IMG/VR virus record: IMGVR_UViG_3300030109_001359
Span: 1-38,020 of that record
Strand: one strand, 5' to 3'
Length of the DNA: 38,020 nucleotides
Source of the DNA: a virus
The notes under the pieces were generated by a model that worked only from the letters and a program-made list of their open reading frames with translations, ran no database searches and was not told where the DNA came from. The stretch's first letter is position 1, and every line of letters begins with the position of its first letter. Below are positions 7,096 to 37,974 of this stretch, one piece after another. Position numbers and translations under genes: made by a program.

Positions 7096-7559
7096 AAACG
7101 TCAGAGAGAGGAATATATCTTATTAAGCACTTTGAAGGGTGTAGGCTAGAAGCCTATAAGTGCTCTGCAAAGGTATGGACTATTGGTTGGGGTCATACCA
7201 GAGGTATAAAAGAAGGTGATACTTGCACTCAAGAAGAAGCCGATCAGATGTTGGTAGAGGATCTTGAGGAGTTTGAGATTGCAGTTACCAATGCGGTAAA
7301 GCCAGACGTTGCTTACGGTTCTGCTGGTAAATCACCATTGAACCAGAATCAGTTTGATGCCTTAGTTTCTTGGACATATAATCTTGGACCTACCAACTTA
7401 CACGCTTCTACACTTTTAATCCGTCTGAACGAAGGTAAATTCGATGAAGCTCCCGATGAAATTAGACGTTGGAACCGCGCTGGCGGTAAGGTTGTTGTCG
7501 GTTTAGTTAGACGTAGAGAAGCAGAAGCATTATTATTTCAGGGTAAAGACTGGAGATAG
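7092..7559 (+). CDS. Endolysin, GH24 T4-type lysozyme
   Basis: The protein is 155 residues, from the ATG overlapping the previous stop (ATGA). Earlier in-frame codons lie inside the upstream gene and would add an unrelated N-terminus. It hydrolyses the N-acetylmuramic acid to N-acetylglucosamine bond of peptidoglycan. The active-site block KHFEGCRLEAYKCSAKVW is followed by TIGWGHT, so the catalytic Glu is E15 and the Thr is T30. The usual Asp is replaced by C24, a natural variant also seen in other GH24 enzymes. Later blocks NQNQFDALVSWTYNLG and RRREAEALLF are typical of the family. There is no signal peptide or SAR helix, so release should depend on the holin(s). Confidence 0.93.
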   Translation: MKTSERGIYLIKHFEGCRLEAYKCSAKVWTIGWGHTRGIKEGDTCTQEEADQMLVEDLEEFEIAVTNAVKPDVAYGSAGKSPLNQNQFDALVSWTYNLGPTNLHASTLLIRLNEGKFDEAPDEIRRWNRAGGKVVVGLVRRREAEALLFQGKDWR

Positions 7560-7566
7560 GTGATGT

Positions 7567-9417
7567 ATGCCATTACAAAAAATAGCATTCAAACCGGGCG
7601 TTAACCGTGAAAACACTCGTTATACCAGTGAGGGTGGCTGGTATGAAAGTGACAAAGTAAGATTCCGTCAGGGCACACCAGAAAAAATAGGTGGGTGGCA
7701 AAGGATATCTGATAGTACGTTTTTAGGGACTGCCAGATCGTTACATTCTTGGGTAACACTAGGTAGTTTAAAACTTACAGGTGTAGGAACTAATTTAAAG
7801 TTTTATATAGAACGTGGGGGTGCATACTATGATGTCACACCCTTACGTGCTACCGTGTCATTATCAAATCCCTTTCAGACGGTTAGTGGCTCTACCACTG
7901 TCACGGTAACAGACGCTAACGGTGGATATATAAATAATGATTTTGTCACTTTCAGTAATGCTTCTGCTGTCGGTGGACTGACCTTAAATGGTGAGTTTCA
8001 AATAACTTATACTGCAGGTAATACATATACCATAACAGCTTCAGAAGCAGCATCTTCTAGTGCTACTGGTGGTGGTACAGTATCAGCAGTATACCAAATA
8101 AATGTTGGTCCTGAAACGGAAGTGCCTCTTGAGGGCTGGGGTGCAGGGGGTTGGGGTGAAGGTTTTTGGGGTATTGGTGCTACAGGCACTGATGCACTTC
8201 GTTTGTGGAGTCAAAGTAATTTTGGTGAGGATTTAATATTTGGTGCAAGAGGAGGATCTTTATTTCTTTGGGATGCTTCCGAAAGCGATGCGTTAAATGT
8301 AAGAGCTACCCTTTTAAGTGCAGAATCTGGAGCTTCTGGTGTACCTACTGTACAAAATTTTATTCTTATATCAGATATAAACCGCTTTGTGTTTTGTTTT
8401 GGTCCTAATCCAGTGGGATCATCAACACAAGATCCTATGTTAGTGCGATGGTCAGATCAAGAAGATGCTACAAATTGGACACCTGCAGCTACAAATCAAG
8501 CAGGTAGTTTACGGTTTTCGCGTGGTTCAGAGATAATAGCGGCTCTACAAACTAAACAAGAAATATTAATATGGACAGATAATTCTTTATACTCCATGCA
8601 GTATGTTGGTGCTCCTATAGTATGGGCTGCACAAATTGTTGGAGAGAACACATCAATCATATCTCAAAATGCAGCAGCCGTTGCTAGTAATGTTACCTAT
8701 TGGATGGGTAAAGAGAAGTTTTATATGTATGATGGCACTGTAAAAAATCTTCGTTGTGATGTTAAAAAATATATATTTACAGATATAAATATCTTAAATA
8801 AAGCGCAAATATTTGCGGGGACAAATGAGGGATTTAATGAGGTATGGTGGTTTTATCCATCGGCAGATAGCACAACAACTAACAGATATGTTGTTTATAA
8901 CTATGCTGAAAATATCTGGTATTACGGTAACATAACTAGGACTGCATGGTTAGATTCTGGTATAAGAGATAATCCAATAGCTGCTACGGGCAATAGTAAA
9001 ATAGTAGAACATGAGGTTGGGGTTGATGATAATGAGACAGCTACAGTAACAGCTATATCAGCATCTATAACTTCTGCACAGTTTGATTTAGAAGACGGAC
9101 ATAAATTTATGCTTGTATCTCGTATGTTACCAGATATAAGTTTTGATGGATCTACAGCAGAATCTCCCGCTGCCACCATGTCTTTATTACCACTAAAAAA
9201 TTCAGGGTCGGGGTATAATTCACCTGTGTCTGAAAGTGGTAATAGTGAAGGCACGGTAACAAGAACTGCAACTGTGCCCATAGAAAAATTTACAGACCAA
9301 GTATTTTTACGTATACGAGGTAGACAGATAAGTTTTAAAGTAGAATCAACAGGGCTTGGTACAACTTGGCAGTTTGGCTCTCCAAGATTAGACATGCGAC
9401 CAGATGGGAGAAGGTAA
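7567..9417 (+). CDS. Large beta-rich virion structural protein
   Basis: The protein is 616 residues. The N-terminus has a signature I recall from many marine podovirus structural proteins (FKPGVNRENTRYTSEGGWYE, then SDKVRFRQGTPEKIGGWQ). A Thr/Ser/Val-rich beta region (about 95-180), Gly/Trp-rich turns (GAGGWGEGFWG) and a propeller-like second half follow. Related proteins are sometimes annotated as packaged-DNA stabilisation or tail-hub proteins, but I cannot decide between these by eye. It opens a group of structural genes directly after the lysozyme. Its stop overlaps the next start (TAATG). Confidence 0.8.
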   Translation: MPLQKIAFKPGVNRENTRYTSEGGWYESDKVRFRQGTPEKIGGWQRISDSTFLGTARSLHSWVTLGSLKLTGVGTNLKFYIERGGAYYDVTPLRATVSLSNPFQTVSGSTTVTVTDANGGYINNDFVTFSNASAVGGLTLNGEFQITYTAGNTYTITASEAASSSATGGGTVSAVYQINVGPETEVPLEGWGAGGWGEGFWGIGATGTDALRLWSQSNFGEDLIFGARGGSLFLWDASESDALNVRATLLSAESGASGVPTVQNFILISDINRFVFCFGPNPVGSSTQDPMLVRWSDQEDATNWTPAATNQAGSLRFSRGSEIIAALQTKQEILIWTDNSLYSMQYVGAPIVWAAQIVGENTSIISQNAAAVASNVTYWMGKEKFYMYDGTVKNLRCDVKKYIFTDINILNKAQIFAGTNEGFNEVWWFYPSADSTTTNRYVVYNYAENIWYYGNITRTAWLDSGIRDNPIAATGNSKIVEHEVGVDDNETATVTAISASITSAQFDLEDGHKFMLVSRMLPDISFDGSTAESPAATMSLLPLKNSGSGYNSPVSESGNSEGTVTRTATVPIEKFTDQVFLRIRGRQISFKVESTGLGTTWQFGSPRLDMRPDGRR

Positions 9418-27149: not shown

Positions 27150-27818
27150 CTAAGTGGCATTTATATCAAACCCATCTACGGTTTCAAATAAAGATTTACC
27201 TGTGCTAGAAGGTTCTGGTGTGAACGCTATAGCTTTGGAGCAAGACTCGTCTTTCATTATATCCTCCACCTCAAGCATCTCTTCACTATTTAAATTTCGC
27301 ATAGGTTTAAAATAAAGTTTGGGTATTGAACTTTGTTCATCGAAATATATCCTTGTAAGGATACAACTAACTAACTCACCACGACTAGCAATATAATTAA
27401 CATATTGTTGTAGTGGCATTTTACTACCCGCAGTAGCTCTGCCATAAATGGAAGATGCAGGTATTTGCAACTGGTACACCTCGTCTAGCCTATCTTCAAA
27501 CACAATAGCTACCCTTTGGAAGTACCTGCAAGCACGTCCACCATACGAACCTGACCCTCTAATATTTTGACGGCAATCCATACAACGTAATGCTTGTTTC
27601 TGGCTTACTGGAACATCGTTTGCAGGTCGTTGCGTATCTAACGACCAACATGTAGGTGCCGTATGATTATCAGGGTCGTAAAAGCCCTCATAGTAGGATC
27701 TAGCAACATCAGCGGCTCCTACAATTACAACTTCCATAGTTTTGTTAGTACCTGTAGTGGTTTCTATACCATCAACAAATTCGGCAAATCTACCACCACG
27801 GATACTAACCCTACGCAC
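27150..27818 (-). CDS. Conserved Cys-motif phage protein, candidate ssDNA-associated factor
   Basis: The protein is 222 residues from a GTG start that overlaps the end of the HTH gene by 8 bases; the N-terminal VSIRGGRF belongs to the conserved family start as I recall it, which supports this start. The central block has TCWSLDTQRPANDVP, CMDCRQNIRGSGSYGG and ACRYFQRVAIVF, giving four cysteines that could bind zinc. It is followed by MPLQQYVNYIASRG and KLYFKPMRNL. The family is widespread in phages, usually unnamed, and found next to the ssDNA-binding protein, as here. A role in ssDNA metabolism is inferred from that neighbour only. Confidence 0.75.
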   Translation of the reverse strand: MRRVSIRGGRFAEFVDGIETTTGTNKTMEVVIVGAADVARSYYEGFYDPDNHTAPTCWSLDTQRPANDVPVSQKQALRCMDCRQNIRGSGSYGGRACRYFQRVAIVFEDRLDEVYQLQIPASSIYGRATAGSKMPLQQYVNYIASRGELVSCILTRIYFDEQSSIPKLYFKPMRNLNSEEMLEVEDIMKDESCSKAIAFTPEPSSTGKSLFETVDGFDINAT

Positions 27819-28011
27819 TCTCTTCGGTGTCCTTTGCCTTCATAAGCGCATCAGAGACCTCAGATAATCTAAACCTGTAAGTGTTACCTATCTTTAAAAA
27901 AGAATCTTTTGGTAAGTTATCTGTGCGAATCCAAGTTCTTACCGTAGAAATAGATACAGCAAAATGGTCTGCAACTTTTTCAATAGGCACAAATGGTTCA
28001 GCATGTTCCAT
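27811..28011 (-). CDS. Small helix-turn-helix DNA-binding protein (MerR/excisionase-like)
   Basis: The protein is 66 residues. The ATG overlaps the previous stop (TGATG), with GAGG eight bases upstream; a GTG one codon earlier is also possible. The segment PIEKVADHFAVSISTVRTWI is a clear helix-turn-helix, followed by a wing-like GNTYRFRLSEVSDAL, as in HTH_17/excisionase-type proteins. No integrase is in the window, so it is more likely a transcription regulator or replication accessory than an excisionase. It is embedded in the replication operon. Confidence 0.8.
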   Translation of the reverse strand: MEHAEPFVPIEKVADHFAVSISTVRTWIRTDNLPKDSFLKIGNTYRFRLSEVSDALMKAKDTEESA

Positions 28012-28409
28012 CACTTTTTCCTCACTGCAATAATATATTCAGAGTTTACGTTTAGTCCTTGGGGCACTAATTCTGGATTGTCCTCAAGAAACTGTTTAAC
28101 ATTAGATTGATTTAATCGTTTATCAAAAAACTCAGGTACCTCATGCTCTAAAACAAACTCATACATCGCAGACCAATCGGAAGTCCAATAACGTGTTTTA
28201 ACTGACCTATAAAACAAACCTTCAGTAGTCTTGACAGAATCAACTCCGTGGTCGTTACAATACTCTAACAGTGCTTTCTTAACCTGCTCAAGTTGAGCAT
28301 TAAGTTCCTGATCTTCTTCTTTAAACTTCGCAGATAATTCAGCTCGTTTCGCCTTGATCTTTAAATAAATCTTGGTTAGCTTCTCGGCTGATAATTTACC
28401 GTTCTCCAT
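28011..28409 (-). CDS. Gp157-like early phage protein with N-terminal coiled coil
   Basis: The protein is 132 residues, starting after AAAGGAGG. The N-terminal half is a charged coiled coil (KIKAKRAELSAKFKEEDQEL). The C-terminal half has VKTTEGLFYRSVKTRYWTSD, then KRLNQSNVKQFLEDNPELVP and GLNVNSEYIIAVRKK, which I recall from a very common early protein of marine and other podoviruses. Its layout resembles Siphovirus Gp157-type proteins. Exact function is unknown. It overlaps the HTH gene by one base. Confidence 0.75.
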   Translation of the reverse strand: MENGKLSAEKLTKIYLKIKAKRAELSAKFKEEDQELNAQLEQVKKALLEYCNDHGVDSVKTTEGLFYRSVKTRYWTSDWSAMYEFVLEHEVPEFFDKRLNQSNVKQFLEDNPELVPQGLNVNSEYIIAVRKK

Positions 28410-33269: not shown

Positions 33270-33411
33270 CACTACCTCCTTTGAATCCGCATAATTTTTT
33301 CTTGAGCCATTTATTGTTAAACTTCTCCAGTGCTTTTTCATTCATAACTTTACGCTTGGCAGTCTGCCGCCACTTGTTACTGCTCACACTACTCACCTGT
33401 TGCCGCCTCAT
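33262..33411 (-). CDS. 49-aa basic protein with FNNKWLKKKL motif
   Basis: This short gene has its ATG overlapping the VRR-NUC stop (ATGA) behind GGAGGAGCT, and its stop overlaps the next gene by 8 bases. The protein is very basic (MRRQQVSSVSSNKWRQ, then KALEKFNNKWLKKKL). The FNN-K/R-WL-K/R-KKL motif recurs in the 39-aa gene at 35199-35318, also near its C-terminus. Coupling on both sides and the recurring motif support a real gene. Function unknown; nucleic-acid binding is a guess from charge. Confidence 0.7.
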   Translation of the reverse strand: MRRQQVSSVSSNKWRQTAKRKVMNEKALEKFNNKWLKKKLCGFKGGSDD

Positions 33412-33683
33412 AGCTCCTCCATAAACGTGTTCATGTTTAACTCATTAACAACCATCGCGCAGCCGCCAGCCATATAAATATCTGATAAGTTCTTTTGCTG
33501 TAATGGCGTAGGTTTGTTCTTACCAGCTTTACATTCGATACCAAAAAATCTACCTTTATGGCACCCGACAATATCCGGCACACCACTTCTCCCATAACCA
33601 CCAGTGGCAGGGAAAAAATAGTAGGCTCCTATTGATTTAAGGTGACGTGATACAGTGCGTTTGACTTTAGCTTCGGGGGTCAT
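33408..33683 (-). CDS. VRR-NUC domain nuclease
   Basis: The protein is 91 residues, the usual size of the stand-alone phage VRR-NUC. It begins MTPEAKVKRTVSRHLKS, the conserved start, and has the catalytic set SGVPDIVG (D), FGIECKAG (E and K) and a Gln a few residues later (TPLQQKN). This PD-(D/E)XK-type enzyme is expected to cleave branched DNA such as Holliday junctions. Its ATG directly abuts the 18-base palindromic repeat, just downstream of a strong terminator; there is no normal ribosome-binding site, only AGGG inside the hairpin arm. Confidence 0.92.
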   Translation of the reverse strand: MTPEAKVKRTVSRHLKSIGAYYFFPATGGYGRSGVPDIVGCHKGRFFGIECKAGKNKPTPLQQKNLSDIYMAGGCAMVVNELNMNTFMEEL

Positions 33684-33700
33684 GGTAGGGGATTCCCTAC
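33683..33700 (-). repeat. 18-base hairpin repeat, copy 1 (abuts VRR-NUC start)
   Basis: TGGTAGGGGATTCCCTAC on the + strand; the + strand T at 33683 is the complement of the A of the VRR-NUC ATG. On the transcript, GGUAGGG and CCCUACC can pair around a 4-base loop, with a 7-bp stem (33684-33701) at this copy. It lies between the terminator U-run and the start codon. Confidence 0.9.
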
Positions 33701-33701
33701 C

Positions 33702-33727
33702 AAAAAAAGGGGGGACGAGTGCCCCCC
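33702..33727 (-). terminator. Strong intrinsic terminator inside the early gene run
   Basis: On the - strand GGGGGG, loop CACTCGT, CCCCCC is followed by seven T residues. It starts 10 bases after the 175-aa gene's stop and ends 18 bases before VRR-NUC. All genes from VRR-NUC to the left lie behind it, in the same direction. Confidence 0.92.
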
Positions 33728-33737
33728 AAGTAGGGTA

Positions 33738-34265
33738 CTACTCTTCGATATAATAAGTCTCTTCGTTGTGGCGTGTTCCAAGCCCTTCAATTTCCTCACC
33801 TTCTTCAAGTAATGATAAACTTGCCATCTTATCTTGAATTTCTACTGGCAACTTATTAATATCATCGTACACAGTGAGTCTTTCGTGGTCAACACATTCT
33901 TTACCAATACAGAGTATTTCGACTCTTTTTGTGGTTTTTGGAGCGTAAACACGATAAAACGTGTTATGTGGTGTCATATCTTCTCTCCTTTTCACGTATG
34001 TTTTTAATTCCTTTACATCACGCATGTTATTAATCCACCCATAGAAAATTTCTCTAGCCATAAAAACATTCTCAGGTTTACCTGTACCATTCCAGAACAA
34101 ACATTTTCCGTGATGTTTTTGCATTTCTTGAAAGTAAAACTTGATTGCCCCGACACCATCCGTAGCAGGGTTTATATCTCCTTCGTCACGCACACCGTCC
34201 ATGTAATCGTATAGCATTGGGACATACATTGGCTTTACATGATTAGTATTTCTCCAGTTAGGCAT
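33738..34265 (-). CDS. Unknown early protein sharing a C-terminal module with its neighbour
   Basis: The protein is 175 residues. The start was set at the ATG overlapping the upstream stop by 8 bases, behind AGAGAAG; a longer frame from 34304 lies inside the upstream gene. It has a Tyr/Met-rich N-terminus (KPMYVPMLYDYMDGVRDEGD), a central GKCLFWNGTGKPENVFMAR and a C-terminus DKMASLSLLEEGEEIEGLGT followed by R-x6-YYIEE. That last module resembles the C-terminus of the 314-aa protein upstream. No catalytic motif is recognised. It is followed by the strong terminator. Confidence 0.7.
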   Translation of the reverse strand: MPNWRNTNHVKPMYVPMLYDYMDGVRDEGDINPATDGVGAIKFYFQEMQKHHGKCLFWNGTGKPENVFMAREIFYGWINNMRDVKELKTYVKRREDMTPHNTFYRVYAPKTTKRVEILCIGKECVDHERLTVYDDINKLPVEIQDKMASLSLLEEGEEIEGLGTRHNEETYYIEE

Positions 34266-35202
34266 GATCGAAATCTTCTCTAGTGATATAGAATAGGTTT
34301 TCATACTTGCGATACCCGACTCCTGTTACGTACTCACCCACATCCACCAGTGATAGCGCAGATAATTTATCCGTAGCGTTATAGGGTAACTCGTTCTGGC
34401 AAAACGTGCTAATTACAGGAAACTCCTTATATTCGTCAGCGTGTTCTACATACCTAAACATTTGCCGTTCTCTTCCCTTATGCCACATAACATGAATAGG
34501 GAGATGCTCAGGTTGATACTCCTGCAACTTAAACGCCTCACTTTCTAAATCCTGTAACGCCAGTAGTTTATTGATTCTGTCGTCAGGCAAAAATGCTTTT
34601 GCTTGGGGAGAATTGGCGAGTTTCCACAGAGTTCCTACCACCCAATGTTCTTCACTGCTATTCCTACCAATTAAAACTCTGCTACTACCAAATAACTCCT
34701 TACTTTGTTCGTATATTTTGTCACTATGATCTTTCTTCGGTAGCCTTTCTTGCTCGCTTATTTCTGCCGCATGCATTTGGTACATGTGAGATAAACTCAT
34801 GCTAGTCAAATAGGTTTTAGCATGTTTTACTATCCGATCCATACTTGAAGATACAAGAAGCCCCGACTTCCAGTAGTCTTGGCTATACTTAGCATTTTCA
34901 ATGAATGGAGACCACACACCATATAAATAGTTGTCGGTACTGTCCTGTAGTTGGTCAAACATTACACCTCCTAATATATAGATATCATCTTCACGATAGA
35001 CAACTGCCATTTTCCGTGTAAAAGCAAACCTAACACCACGTAACTCTCGTTTTAATTTTTCAACTAGCTTTACAAGATTAATATGGTTAGCTAGTGGGGT
35101 TACGTTTACGTCTTGTGGTTGTGCCTTCGCCCATTCCACGGTTTCCAGCATGTTTGATAATACTTTTGGAAAAAAATGTTTTCTAAAATTACGTCTCATC
35201 AT
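34258..35202 (-). CDS. Unknown early protein, 314 aa
   Basis: The start was set at the ATG overlapping the stop of the 39-aa gene (ATGA), behind AAAGGAGAG; the longer frame from 35235 lies inside that gene. The N-terminus is basic (MMRRNFRKHFFPK), then comes REDDIYILGGVMFDQLQD and a helical middle. The C-terminus DKLSALSLVDVGEYVTGVGY is related to that of the 175-aa protein next door. I do not recognise the family. It belongs to a translationally coupled block of three genes bounded by palindromic repeats. Confidence 0.7.
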   Translation of the reverse strand: MMRRNFRKHFFPKVLSNMLETVEWAKAQPQDVNVTPLANHINLVKLVEKLKRELRGVRFAFTRKMAVVYREDDIYILGGVMFDQLQDSTDNYLYGVWSPFIENAKYSQDYWKSGLLVSSSMDRIVKHAKTYLTSMSLSHMYQMHAAEISEQERLPKKDHSDKIYEQSKELFGSSRVLIGRNSSEEHWVVGTLWKLANSPQAKAFLPDDRINKLLALQDLESEAFKLQEYQPEHLPIHVMWHKGRERQMFRYVEHADEYKEFPVISTFCQNELPYNATDKLSALSLVDVGEYVTGVGYRKYENLFYITREDFDHA

Positions 35203-35318
35203 TGTTTCTCTCCTTTTAGTTTCTTTCTCAGCCATCTGTTATTAAATTGTTGCAACTCCTTTTCAAGTCTTTCCCGTTGCCTTCGATTCCGTTCACGGCT
35301 TGCATTACTCTGTGACAT
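35199..35318 (-). CDS. 39-aa basic protein with FNNRWLRKKL motif
   Basis: A short, highly charged protein (MSQSNASRERNRRQRERLEK, then QQFNNRWLRKKLKGEKQ), behind the ribosome-binding site AAAGGAG, which follows directly on the 18-base palindrome. Its stop overlaps the start of the 314-aa gene. The FNN-x-WL-x-KKL motif is shared with the 49-aa protein at 33262-33411. A helical, nucleic-acid-binding peptide is plausible but unproven. Confidence 0.7.
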   Translation of the reverse strand: MSQSNASRERNRRQRERLEKELQQFNNRWLRKKLKGEKQ

Positions 35319-35331
35319 ATCGAGTCTCCTT

Positions 35332-35349
35332 TGGTAGGGGATTCCCTAC
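35332..35349 (-). repeat. 18-base hairpin repeat, copy 2 (supplies the 309-aa gene's stop)
   Basis: TGGTAGGGGATTCCCTAC on the + strand. On the - strand the TAG stop of the 309-aa gene is inside the left arm, and AAAGGAG for the 39-aa gene follows the right arm. Confidence 0.9.
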
Positions 35350-36275
35350 AGTTCTTGGTGTACGTCAATTTTTTTGTTAAATGCAATCTTGTTTATGTAT
35401 CTATTAAAACTGCTACGAAACTTCTTAGCGTCAAGGTATGCAGGGTCATCCCATAAATATTTACCAGCTTCCCGATAATATCTTCTGTTGTCATCACAAT
35501 AGTTCATGTACATGTTGACCACCGTAAGACCGCTTTCCAAGCATGGATCTTCTCCGTTTATACCTAGAGCTTTTGTTGCGTGTTCTTTGAGAGCTTTGGA
35601 TAAGGGTTCAGAGTTTCCTACAATTCCCTCTCTTATATCACCAGTCTCACCACGTAACAATGGAATCATTGTCCACGCCCAATCTGTAAGACGTTTCAAT
35701 TCACCTTTGCTTTTAGCTTTCAATTCTTTATCAACCACAGTCTTAGCAGGTACCCAAGGGCTAGTTATAAGTGCCCAATGGGGGGTGTCACCACTGTCTT
35801 TGTGTAGCCTTTTAAAGGTAATCGTGCGTGTATCATTTTCAGTTGCTTTGGGTAAAAAAGTTTTGTGTAGTTTATCTTTGCCAAATGCAAACTTGTTACC
35901 TTTGTCACGCCACACAATGTATTGCTTGCCGTTTTTAACTTCTAGGAATAAACCGTTGGGTAAAAAGAAGTCTAGGAAACAATATAAAGAATTATGACCA
36001 TAATCCCCATAACCATTAGATATGTGAACATATTCTCCTGTGGCAGTACGTTCCCACCGGATAGCTCTGGCTGTTCTATCCATTATCCAACTACTGTGCC
36101 ACTCCGACCACACCACATATTCATTATCATTCAGACGATCAATGCGCTCATAGTTTCTGCTCCTACAACCCAATGGACGCACATCGTCATCTACCCTTCC
36201 CCTTACGGGTACTATTGATTTCCAATGGTCTTCCGCTTCCTTAAACGTGTTTAGATGTACTCTATACTTAGCCAT
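35346..36275 (-). CDS. Unknown early protein, 309 aa
   Basis: The start was set at the ATG behind AAGGAGAG, just after palindrome copy 3. An in-frame extension to 36335 runs through the palindrome and the upstream gene and was not used. The protein is basic and aromatic (NDNEYVVWSEWHSSWIMDR, RWERTATGEYVHISNGYGDY, NGKQYIVWRDKGNKFAFG), with a helical C-terminal third. No catalytic or metal motif is recognised. It stands alone between two copies of the palindromic repeat, unlike its overlapping neighbours. Confidence 0.7.
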   Translation of the reverse strand: MAKYRVHLNTFKEAEDHWKSIVPVRGRVDDDVRPLGCRSRNYERIDRLNDNEYVVWSEWHSSWIMDRTARAIRWERTATGEYVHISNGYGDYGHNSLYCFLDFFLPNGLFLEVKNGKQYIVWRDKGNKFAFGKDKLHKTFLPKATENDTRTITFKRLHKDSGDTPHWALITSPWVPAKTVVDKELKAKSKGELKRLTDWAWTMIPLLRGETGDIREGIVGNSEPLSKALKEHATKALGINGEDPCLESGLTVVNMYMNYCDDNRRYYREAGKYLWDDPAYLDAKKFRSSFNRYINKIAFNKKIDVHQEL

Positions 36276-36286
36276 TTCTCTCTCCT

Positions 36287-36304
36287 TGGTAGGGGATTCC
36301 CTAC
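36287..36304 (-). repeat. 18-base hairpin repeat, copy 3 (supplies the 74-aa gene's stop)
   Basis: TGGTAGGGGATTCCCTAC on the + strand, extendable to a 7-bp stem at 36288-36305. The TAG stop of the 74-aa gene is in the left arm on the - strand, and AAGGAGAG for the 309-aa gene follows the right arm, as at copy 2. Confidence 0.9.
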
Positions 36305-36525
36305 CCTTGTTGTATGCGCTCCCACGCTTTGTCAATTAGGTTTATCATAGAATCCGACATATCAGACTCCTCGATAAACCCTTCGATTACTGCATCAATA
36401 ACTAACACGGCTTCAGACCACTTCATGCGATTATCTGTAGACGTGTTTTCACAAGAAACATTACTATCCGGTTGTTTTCCTACAGCGGTATTATTGGTGC
36501 CAGTGGTAACATTATCTTCAGTCAC
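36301..36525 (-). CDS. Small acidic early protein, 74 aa
   Basis: The GTG start overlaps the previous stop by 8 bases and follows GAGGAG; a TTG five codons upstream is the alternative. The N-terminal half is Asn/Thr/Ser-rich and probably disordered (TEDNVTTGTNNTAVGKQ). The C-terminal half is one or two acidic helices (WSEAVLVIDAVIEGFIEES, then MINLIDKAWERIQQG). No family recognised. The stop lies in palindrome copy 3. Confidence 0.6.
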   Translation of the reverse strand: MTEDNVTTGTNNTAVGKQPDSNVSCENTSTDNRMKWSEAVLVIDAVIEGFIEESDMSDSMINLIDKAWERIQQG

Positions 36526-36706
36526 TTTTACACTCCTCAATCATCTTACTTGCTAGGTTCCAAGTAATCATAGAACACAGATATGCCAATGCTTTCTCTT
36601 CACCAGAAAACTTCTCAAGGTACTTCGCTAACTCCTCTGGGCTGTCTGGTGTCCAGAACACACCGTTTAGCTCAAACGGATTCTCATCCAGTATTATCTT
36701 ACTCAT
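36518..36706 (-). CDS. Small early protein, 62 aa
   Basis: The ATG overlaps the VWA gene's stop (ATGA) behind GGAGGAG. The sequence begins MSKIILDENPFELNGVFWTP and continues with an acidic helical part (SPEELAKYLEKFSGEEKALA). No family recognised. Coupling on both sides supports a real gene. Confidence 0.65.
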   Translation of the reverse strand: MSKIILDENPFELNGVFWTPDSPEELAKYLEKFSGEEKALAYLCSMITWNLASKMIEECKSD

Positions 36707-37974
36707 TTCATCTCCTCCGATCTTACGTGGACGTACTTGCCCACATTAGGTTTGGCACCCTTGTTGTCAATAATTACCCACAGTACAGGGCAGTACCACT
36801 TAGACCAACCAGAAACGTATCCATCCGTAATGACAATAGCCGCCTGTGGTTTGATCGCTTTCTCCTGCATGTAGTCGGTGACACACTCGACCTCAGTACC
36901 ACCACCACATTTAGGACGAGTAGATGTTACAAAACTATTCATGGTATCCATCGTGTATGTCTCATCACCTACTACTCGTGAACCCCAATAAAGTAATCGC
37001 ACCATGTCAGGTTCCACTGTGTCACAGATAGATTTGATTTCTGTCTTGGCTACGTTCAGTTCCCTGTTACCCACTGAATAAGATGTGTCTACCGCCACCA
37101 CCAGATCCTCTACCTTCTCACTAACACCAGATGGCAAGTAGATGTCCTGTCCAAGTAGTCGCCTGTTAGGACGTGACCACGTACTGTAGTCGTTCCCGGC
37201 ACATGTGGTAGTTACAAATTCACGTAGCACCTCACGCCAATCGACCTGTGTTTTGAGTAAGTCACCAAACTCCAATGCCTCACCGCCACCACCTTTACCT
37301 GCAAGGATGTGTCCCTGCCGTATGGCTTGATCCAGTTCACGTTCCATGTCACGTTGCTCGTCAGGCGATAGTTCCTTACCCTTCCAATCGTGTTCATCAA
37401 ACCCTGCACCTTCACCTTGTTGTTGCTCACCGTCCTCACCATCATCACCACTACCACCACTGGTAGGGGATTCCCTACGGTTCTGTTCATCCTCCTCACG
37501 TTGCTGTTGTAGTGCTTTGAACACCTGTGCCGCTGTCATACCACGAAACTTTGTGTCATAGCATATCTCTACAGACTTAGGTATCTCCAAGAACGGCATC
37601 CCGTCTATAGTCTTAGCACCCTCTGCCTCGTCCATGATCTGTAAGTTCCGCACATGATCGACAGCTTGATTGGCTAGTCGTGGGTCTATCTCCCACAAGT
37701 TCTCCCATGTAGTGAAGTCCCTGTGCATCTTGTGATAGTCCTCATGCACCACAGTAAATCGCAGTGCCGCATCGTTTTCGGCTTCAATAAATTTACGCCC
37801 AAACATACAATCACGTCCGTCGGTACATGCTGTTGGTATATGATCGACCACCTTCTTTTCACCGATCATCAGCACTGGTGCCAGTGCCTTGTACCTGTCG
37901 TGTGACATCACTGCCACCACTGCTTTACTTAGCCGTTGTTCTGGCGTTAGTTCTCTATTACCTATTGCTAACAT
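36703..37974 (-). CDS. Metallopeptidase-VWA protein (DUF2201/VWA-like)
   Basis: The protein is 423 residues, with TAATG overlap to the gene before it. The N-terminal domain has HEDYH at 77-81, an HExxH zinc motif, with further helices as in the putative metallopeptidase of DUF2201-type proteins. A hydrophilic linker (about 160-200, Gly/Glu/Gln-rich) contains a palindrome copy in frame. The C-terminal VWA-like domain has the metal-site motif DTSYS (296-300), a GGGTEVE loop and ITDGY (T383, D384). Such proteins usually act with a MoxR-type AAA+ ATPase; the gene just upstream is cut by the window edge. Role in infection unknown; cofactor-insertion or chaperone-like remodelling is the family precedent. 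Confidence 0.85.
   Translation of the reverse strand: MLAIGNRELTPEQRLSKAVVAVMSHDRYKALAPVLMIGEKKVVDHIPTACTDGRDCMFGRKFIEAENDAALRFTVVHEDYHKMHRDFTTWENLWEIDPRLANQAVDHVRNLQIMDEAEGAKTIDGMPFLEIPKSVEICYDTKFRGMTAAQVFKALQQQREEDEQNRRESPTSGGSGDDGEDGEQQQGEGAGFDEHDWKGKELSPDEQRDMERELDQAIRQGHILAGKGGGGEALEFGDLLKTQVDWREVLREFVTTTCAGNDYSTWSRPNRRLLGQDIYLPSGVSEKVEDLVVAVDTSYSVGNRELNVAKTEIKSICDTVEPDMVRLLYWGSRVVGDETYTMDTMNSFVTSTRPKCGGGTEVECVTDYMQEKAIKPQAAIVITDGYVSGWSKWYCPVLWVIIDNKGAKPNVGKYVHVRSEEMK
37461..37478 (-). repeat. 18-base hairpin repeat, copy 4 (inside the VWA gene)
   Basis: TGGTAGGGGATTCCCTAC on the + strand, same orientation as the other copies. It is translated in frame as part of RRESPTS in the disordered linker between the HExxH and VWA domains. 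Confidence 0.9.

Follow-up and report, generated by a model that had tools for sequence, protein, structure and literature searches.

In phage P1 one repressor, C1, acts at many scattered operators; the operators are asymmetric and the prophage is a plasmid. Palindromic sequences of another kind, the Rickettsia palindromic elements, are insertions of ~100-150 bp found at varied positions. The closest described systems are those of the Cluster A mycobacteriophages and of Cluster K. Cluster A phages such as L5 and Bxb1 carry 20-30 repressor sites genome-wide with a genome-specific consensus; autoregulation of the repressor has been proposed, and the sites co-vary with it (PMC6550527). These stoperators are 13-bp asymmetric sequences, mostly in one orientation, and the repressor is a monomer with two DNA-binding domains (PMC9283540). 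In Cluster K, the SAS and ESAS repeats occur where genes start, within the non-structural half of the genome. The SAS is asymmetric and contains a Shine-Dalgarno core, the ESAS is an inverted repeat with imperfect arms of 17 bp and a consensus that differs between subclusters, and no cognate protein was identified in that paper (PMC3203893). The literature library searched contained no paper describing the palindrome set reported here.

The window, i.e., the whole stretch of DNA that was analysed, consists of bases 1-38020 of the 44,263-b virus record IMGVR_UViG_3300030109_001359. A sequence-only reading had pointed to four identical hairpin repeats in the same orientation, and a scan of the whole window agreed with it: the 18-mer TGGTAGGGGATTCCCTAC occurs exactly at 33683, 35332, 36287 and 37461 on the + strand, there is no fifth exact copy in the window, and the expectation from shuffled sequences was 0.02 matches, even allowing 3 mismatches. 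The contexts that it had assigned to the copies, three at gene borders and one translated in frame within a protein linker, were found as well (Table 1). Copy 2 is followed by AAAGGAG and the ATG (35318-35316) of a small gene, and copy 3 by AAGGAG and the ATG of F13. Past the end of the window the record holds five further copies or near-copies in both orientations: the 18-mer recurs exactly at 40463 and, in the opposite orientation, at 39233, it recurs with one mismatch at 40691 and 41231, and a perfect 16-bp palindrome, GTAGGGGATCCCCTAC, is located at 42217. The single orientation therefore holds inside the window and not in the full record. The commonest repeated hairpin with 6-bp arms has 8 occurrences in the record, compared to at most 3 in shuffles. 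The palindrome at 39233 lies before a MoxR/CobS-like gene, and that at 42217 lies ~25 bp before the ATG of fac (41596-42192, minus strand, 198 aa), the first early gene, located just past the window.

Table 1. Palindrome copies and neighbouring features in the distal part of the window
Feature	Position	Strand	Remarks
VRR-NUC endonuclease gene	33408..33683	-	Starts directly after copy 1; PHROG 93, E 4e-15; VRR-NUC name inferred from family
Palindrome copy 1	33683..33701	-	GGTAGGGAATCCCCTACC on coding strand; between terminator and VRR-NUC ATG
Intrinsic terminator of preceding block	33702..33727	-	GGGGGGCACTCGTCCCCCC TTTTTTT; stem 33709-33727, T-run 33702-33708; read directly
Gene F15	33738..34304	-	Overlaps F14, block end; family in 13/15 long genomes
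Gene F14	34258..35235	-	Family in 14/15 long genomes
Palindrome copy 2	35332..35349	-	Contains F13 TAG stop (ORF end 35346); kept in relative L019
Gene F13	35346..36275	-	Family in 14/15 long genomes
Palindrome copy 3	36287..36305	-	Contains TAG stop of preceding minus-strand ORF (end 36301)
CobT/VWA-like gene	36703..37974	-	PHROG 1314, E 3e-76; VWA/CobT name inferred from CobS-CobT cassette
Palindrome copy 4	37461..37478	-	In-frame translation RESPT in CobT/VWA linker

The search of the genome and related phages that the sequence-only reading had proposed yielded, besides the extra copies in the record, palindromes at the same junctions in relatives. Most single matches in an exact 16-mer scan of IMG/VR were chance-like, and the scan yielded the phages G001 and L019. 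G001 is a distant phage (58,206 b) with CobS and CobT/VWA-like proteins 51% and 53% identical, respectively, to those of this phage. The same 6-bp stem occurs ten times in G001, seven times with a 5-base centre and three times with a 4-base centre, and the CobT linker again holds one of these copies. L019, a close relative, has a different 20-bp palindrome at the place of copy 1, before VRR-NUC (perfect palindrome GTTAAGTAGCTACTTAAC, L019:2145-2162), and a scan for the L019 palindrome GTTAAGTA..TACTTAAC gave scattered copies only. A CobS search from a single sequence found nothing; a profile of two CobS proteins retrieved 80 related uncultivated-phage loci. No CobS relative was present among 84,980 species genomes, and consequently no host was found.

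A repeated palindrome is present in all 80 loci, with a single type and up to 13 copies in each genome; only two of the loci mix types. The types are phage-specific and number more than ten, with arms that include GTTAGTG-N3, GTTAGGG, TTTAGGG, TTTACGGAATTCCGTAAA, TTTACGC, GTTGGTCA-N2, TTCGGGCA-N2, TAGCCA-N1, GTAGTGA-N1, GTAGTAC-N2, TGTTATAG-N4, GTTAGTC, and others; the pooled copies comprise 518 perfect and 68 one-mismatch sequences. A palindrome was found upstream of the MoxR/CobS-like gene in 63 of 75 testable loci, at the start region of DUF3150 in 58 of 67, and at fac in 43 of 49, and CobT has one upstream in 48 and internally in 11 of 76 loci. In 15 long genomes the copies are concentrated in the early region and essentially missing from structural genes, the exception being one single-mismatch, chance-like match within a G016 structural gene. 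The sequence-only reading had named as evidence against itself that relatives would have these bases conserved purely as coding sequence; instead, the bases change completely and dyad symmetry and position are kept. Many sites, a genome-specific sequence and confinement to non-structural regions are the layout of a dispersed operator or stoperator system. Counting against operators, in some genomes the spacers of different copies differ in length by 1-2 bases, which is unusual for a rigid dimer and would require a flexible one.

A protein that changes with the palindrome was found in Fac (~170-210 aa), which an iterated profile search detected in 66 loci or genomes. For pairs of phages with CobS proteins of 80-100% identity, Fac identity is 61% in pairs that share a palindrome and 22.5% in pairs that do not, and in the same pairs DUF3150 and CobT remain at 74-77%. 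Palindrome type correlated with Fac with a partial r of 0.58, a value reached in 0 of 2000 permutations, and the controls ranged from -0.02 to 0.21; the permutation serves as a guide and not as a strict p-value because pairs are not independent and some loci are near-duplicates. When 15 gene families were compared over the long genomes, r was 0.66 for Fac and at most 0.39 for the others, with -0.09 for a small HTH protein; the residual correlation of DUF3150, CobT and CobS is to be expected, given their linkage to fac. Palindrome and Fac co-vary beyond overall relatedness, as dispersed operators do with their regulator. As counter-evidence, some distant pairs share the stem and have very different Fac proteins: those of G000 and G001 are 20% identical, and that of L101 is 17-20% identical to those of other GTTAGGG phages. 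AlphaFold2 models of Fac are all-helical with one long basic helix (pLDDT 90 for L050 and 84 for this phage). This helix is the most type-conserved segment, 52% identical in divergent pairs of one type and 20% identical in pairs of different types, and it is likely the specificity element. Fac had no match in a tblastn search of cultured phages or among PDB sequences, belongs to no Pfam family, has no recognised DNA-binding domain, and gave weak scattered matches only, none to a transposase, against PHROG. No PDB structure matched its fold: Foldseek found no match at E 0.001, and VIA-align gave Z values of at most 5.2, a result from which no unlisted fold can be excluded.

Two phages carry two fac paralogues each (L043:5815-6417 and 7420-7971; L090:6553-7062 and 7398-7922), and these pairs possibly represent replacement in progress. 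The small HTH protein (excisionase/MerR-like; 27811-28014, 67 aa) is present in 17 of 27 related records searched, at 43-64% identity. It was a candidate for the cognate factor but was dismissed, since palindrome type is not tracked by it.

Joint switching of palindrome and Fac was seen most directly in pairs of phages that are ~88-95% identical in DNA, in which the whole palindrome set and Fac differ and the other shared genes are conserved. L049 and L059 are 88-93% identical over ~18 kb; all 16 other proteins in the comparison have identities of 81-99.5%, and Fac alone has no match. L036 and L039 show the same pattern wherever both are covered: the three L039 genes that lack a match are past the point where L036 stops, and L038, a phage of the L036 type, has them at 83-85% identity. 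At most of the junctions compared, the palindrome is replaced and the flanks can be aligned, often to within a few bases, and in the noncoding stretch beside fac the flanks are more diverged. Recombinants were found as well. L076, a phage of the GTTAGTG type, has two TTTACGG palindromes in a ~0.5-kb segment whose similarity to a TTTACGG phage is 83-88% and which adjoins a retained GTTAGTG site, and L102 has one foreign palindrome before VRR-NUC. Ordinary recombination can, as these sequences attest, import non-cognate sites. Foreign sites are nevertheless rare, which suggests that they are mostly lost, and the mixed genome of L076 suggests piecemeal recombination combined with selection.

These observations bear on the first candidate of the sequence-only reading, a small mobile palindromic element, similar to Rickettsia palindromic elements or REP/REPINs, that spreads in the phage. 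Such an element would account for the many near-perfect copies in both orientations, some of them in frame in linkers. However, positions are conserved while the sequences change in concert, foreign copies arrive within a homologous segment, and no element-borne gene was found. The palindromes are 16-20 bp long at conserved positions, unlike the Rickettsia insertions, and the RAYT protein cognate to REP/REPIN is an HUH transposase, a class to which Fac shows no Pfam or PHROG match. We consider a mobile element very improbable.

An element acting in RNA, a transcribed hairpin by the ribosome-binding site (RBS) that would regulate translation or processing when Fac or a nuclease binds it, deserves more weight. 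Nearly all copies are within transcribed sequence, in leaders and directly before RBSs, the loop length is flexible, and all ten types tested by RNA folding do fold (-3.6 to -11.4 kcal/mol). Folding energy thus permits the hairpin that had been suggested, but the sequence changes ignore base pairing. Among the 68 one-mismatch copies there are 3 G-U, 8 A-C and 57 other mismatches, many at the non-core outer base, so that G-U pairs are not preferred. Hybrid half-sites that are unable to pair are conserved in ~10 phages. Loops are free to vary in several types, and several others have symmetric central bases (A-N-T, A-NN-T, AATT, AGCT) that cannot pair in an RNA loop. In addition, the copy in the CobT linker is away from any start codon. 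Taken together, the mismatch pattern, the unpaired hybrids and the symmetric centres favour recognition of a dyad in DNA rather than of RNA, and an RNA-level element appears unlikely.

The location of predicted promoters was also informative. In this record the palindrome at 40691 is preceded by a 12/12 sigma-70 match, whose predicted start lies ~30 b before it, and the fac palindrome also has a match upstream, of 9/12; each match is weak by itself because the regional match count is not above that of shuffles. Across the family, a 10/12 promoter whose start falls in the range from 70 b upstream to 5 b inside accompanies 22 of 395 palindromes, versus 2.0% of random positions, and many of these promoters have the form TTGACAT...TGTGGTAT. 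Where promoters can be predicted the palindrome is found in the leader, a location better suited to a roadblock or repressor than to an activator. An activator of the MotA or Ogr kind, or an architectural or segregation site resembling parS or matS, would produce identical co-evolution, the sites do mark block starts, and their number and confinement are like those of domain-organising sites. Yet the palindromes are downstream of the predictable promoters, often only a few bases before the RBS and too close for upstream activation, and one site per gene block favours gene control over segregation. A role of this type, other than repression, seems quite unlikely. The phage promoter listed among the early candidates, in the form of a hairpin promoter for a phage RNA polymerase as in N4, would fit copies located just before gene starts and the one between a terminator and an ATG. 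It fares poorly against the sigma-70-like promoters upstream (one of 12/12, with a regional total not above shuffles) and the position of the palindrome in the leader, and we regard it as highly improbable. N4-type hairpin promoters belong with a single-subunit virion RNA polymerase; a search for PF00940 had no match, and since the control was also empty this result is uninformative.

Among the interpretations offered initially, the comparative evidence favours the repressor operator over the other three. We propose that the palindromes are probably dispersed dyad operators, of the stoperator kind, for a phage-encoded and probably dimeric DNA-binding protein, Fac, that would repress or road-block the early gene blocks. 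In this model a Fac dimer would bind the palindromes at the entry of each block, at sites between a promoter or upstream stop codon and the RBS or, sometimes, inside coding sequence, and the bound dimer would impede transcription into the block. The outcome could be shutdown of the early region or a block of superinfecting phages of the same type. The leader of fac, the first early gene, contains a palindrome too, so the gene is probably autoregulated.

The palindrome system is stoperator-like, yet it is not a member of the Cluster A group. The layout and the co-variation are alike, but here the sites are dyad palindromes rather than 13-bp asymmetric sequences, the protein is unrelated, and whole sets are replaced in otherwise similar phages. 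Cluster A phages are also temperate, whereas the tyrosine integrase PF00589 was not detected in the 15 records searched (14 of 14 controls were positive), so that a temperate-style immunity role is not indicated. The 13-bp Cluster K SAS, GGGATAGGAGCCC, includes the Shine-Dalgarno core, and the palindromes described here are upstream of a separate RBS. P1 C1 resembles the proposed system in having one regulator for many sites and differs in its asymmetric sites and plasmid prophage. A broader interpretation, which we offer tentatively and with less than even confidence, is that this family, with no recognisable tyrosine integrase, has a DNA-binding regulator of the early region with an unseen fold, whose gene and fixed-position operators are all swapped wholesale, generating a large natural collection of orthogonal pairs and an immunity-like diversification without lysogeny.

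If the proposal is correct, Fac would define a novel family of regulators in which more than ten specificities occur naturally, each with ~10 sites, and its recognition code could be read by comparison. It would also pose the evolutionary question of how a regulator and ~10 dispersed operators changed with the flanking DNA still recognisable. One gene of a large group of uncultivated phages would acquire a likely function, and a look-alike set of sites exists in a cultured cyanophage. In this phage, MinM2, GTTCAG-N-CTGAAC occurs exactly 21 times, with many copies in the order stop-palindrome-RBS-ATG and one before the first early gene, MM2_92; unlike in the uncultivated family, copies are also present in the late region. 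A relative with a 61% MoxR has a related palindrome, GGTTCA-N2/3-TGAACC. A scan with the MinM2 palindrome GGTTCAGNCTGAACC was uninformative. No Fac homologue was detected in the stretch of MinM2 searched, so the look-alike set may be convergent. Two negative controls lacked such a repeat: CRP-810, a cultured Roseobacter phage with cobS and cobT in a different gene order (first 50 kb), and KPP25 (39 kb).

Other repeats were noted during the analysis. At L021:4195-4290 (record 41194-41289), and in relatives, a second motif, GAAACCAGTTCYTAG..GCGTTGAGCC, is found around the noncoding palindromes in 1-3 copies. It was found in most genomes checked, and its sequence is constant whatever the palindrome type. 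In the same noncoding stretch, L036 and L039 have clusters of AATGTTC direct repeats near 8450-8600 that resemble origin iterons. The Rhizobium phage RHph_TM3_14A (L159) has 13 copies of GTTACC-N5/6-GGTAAC over 42 kb, many of them inside coding sequence.
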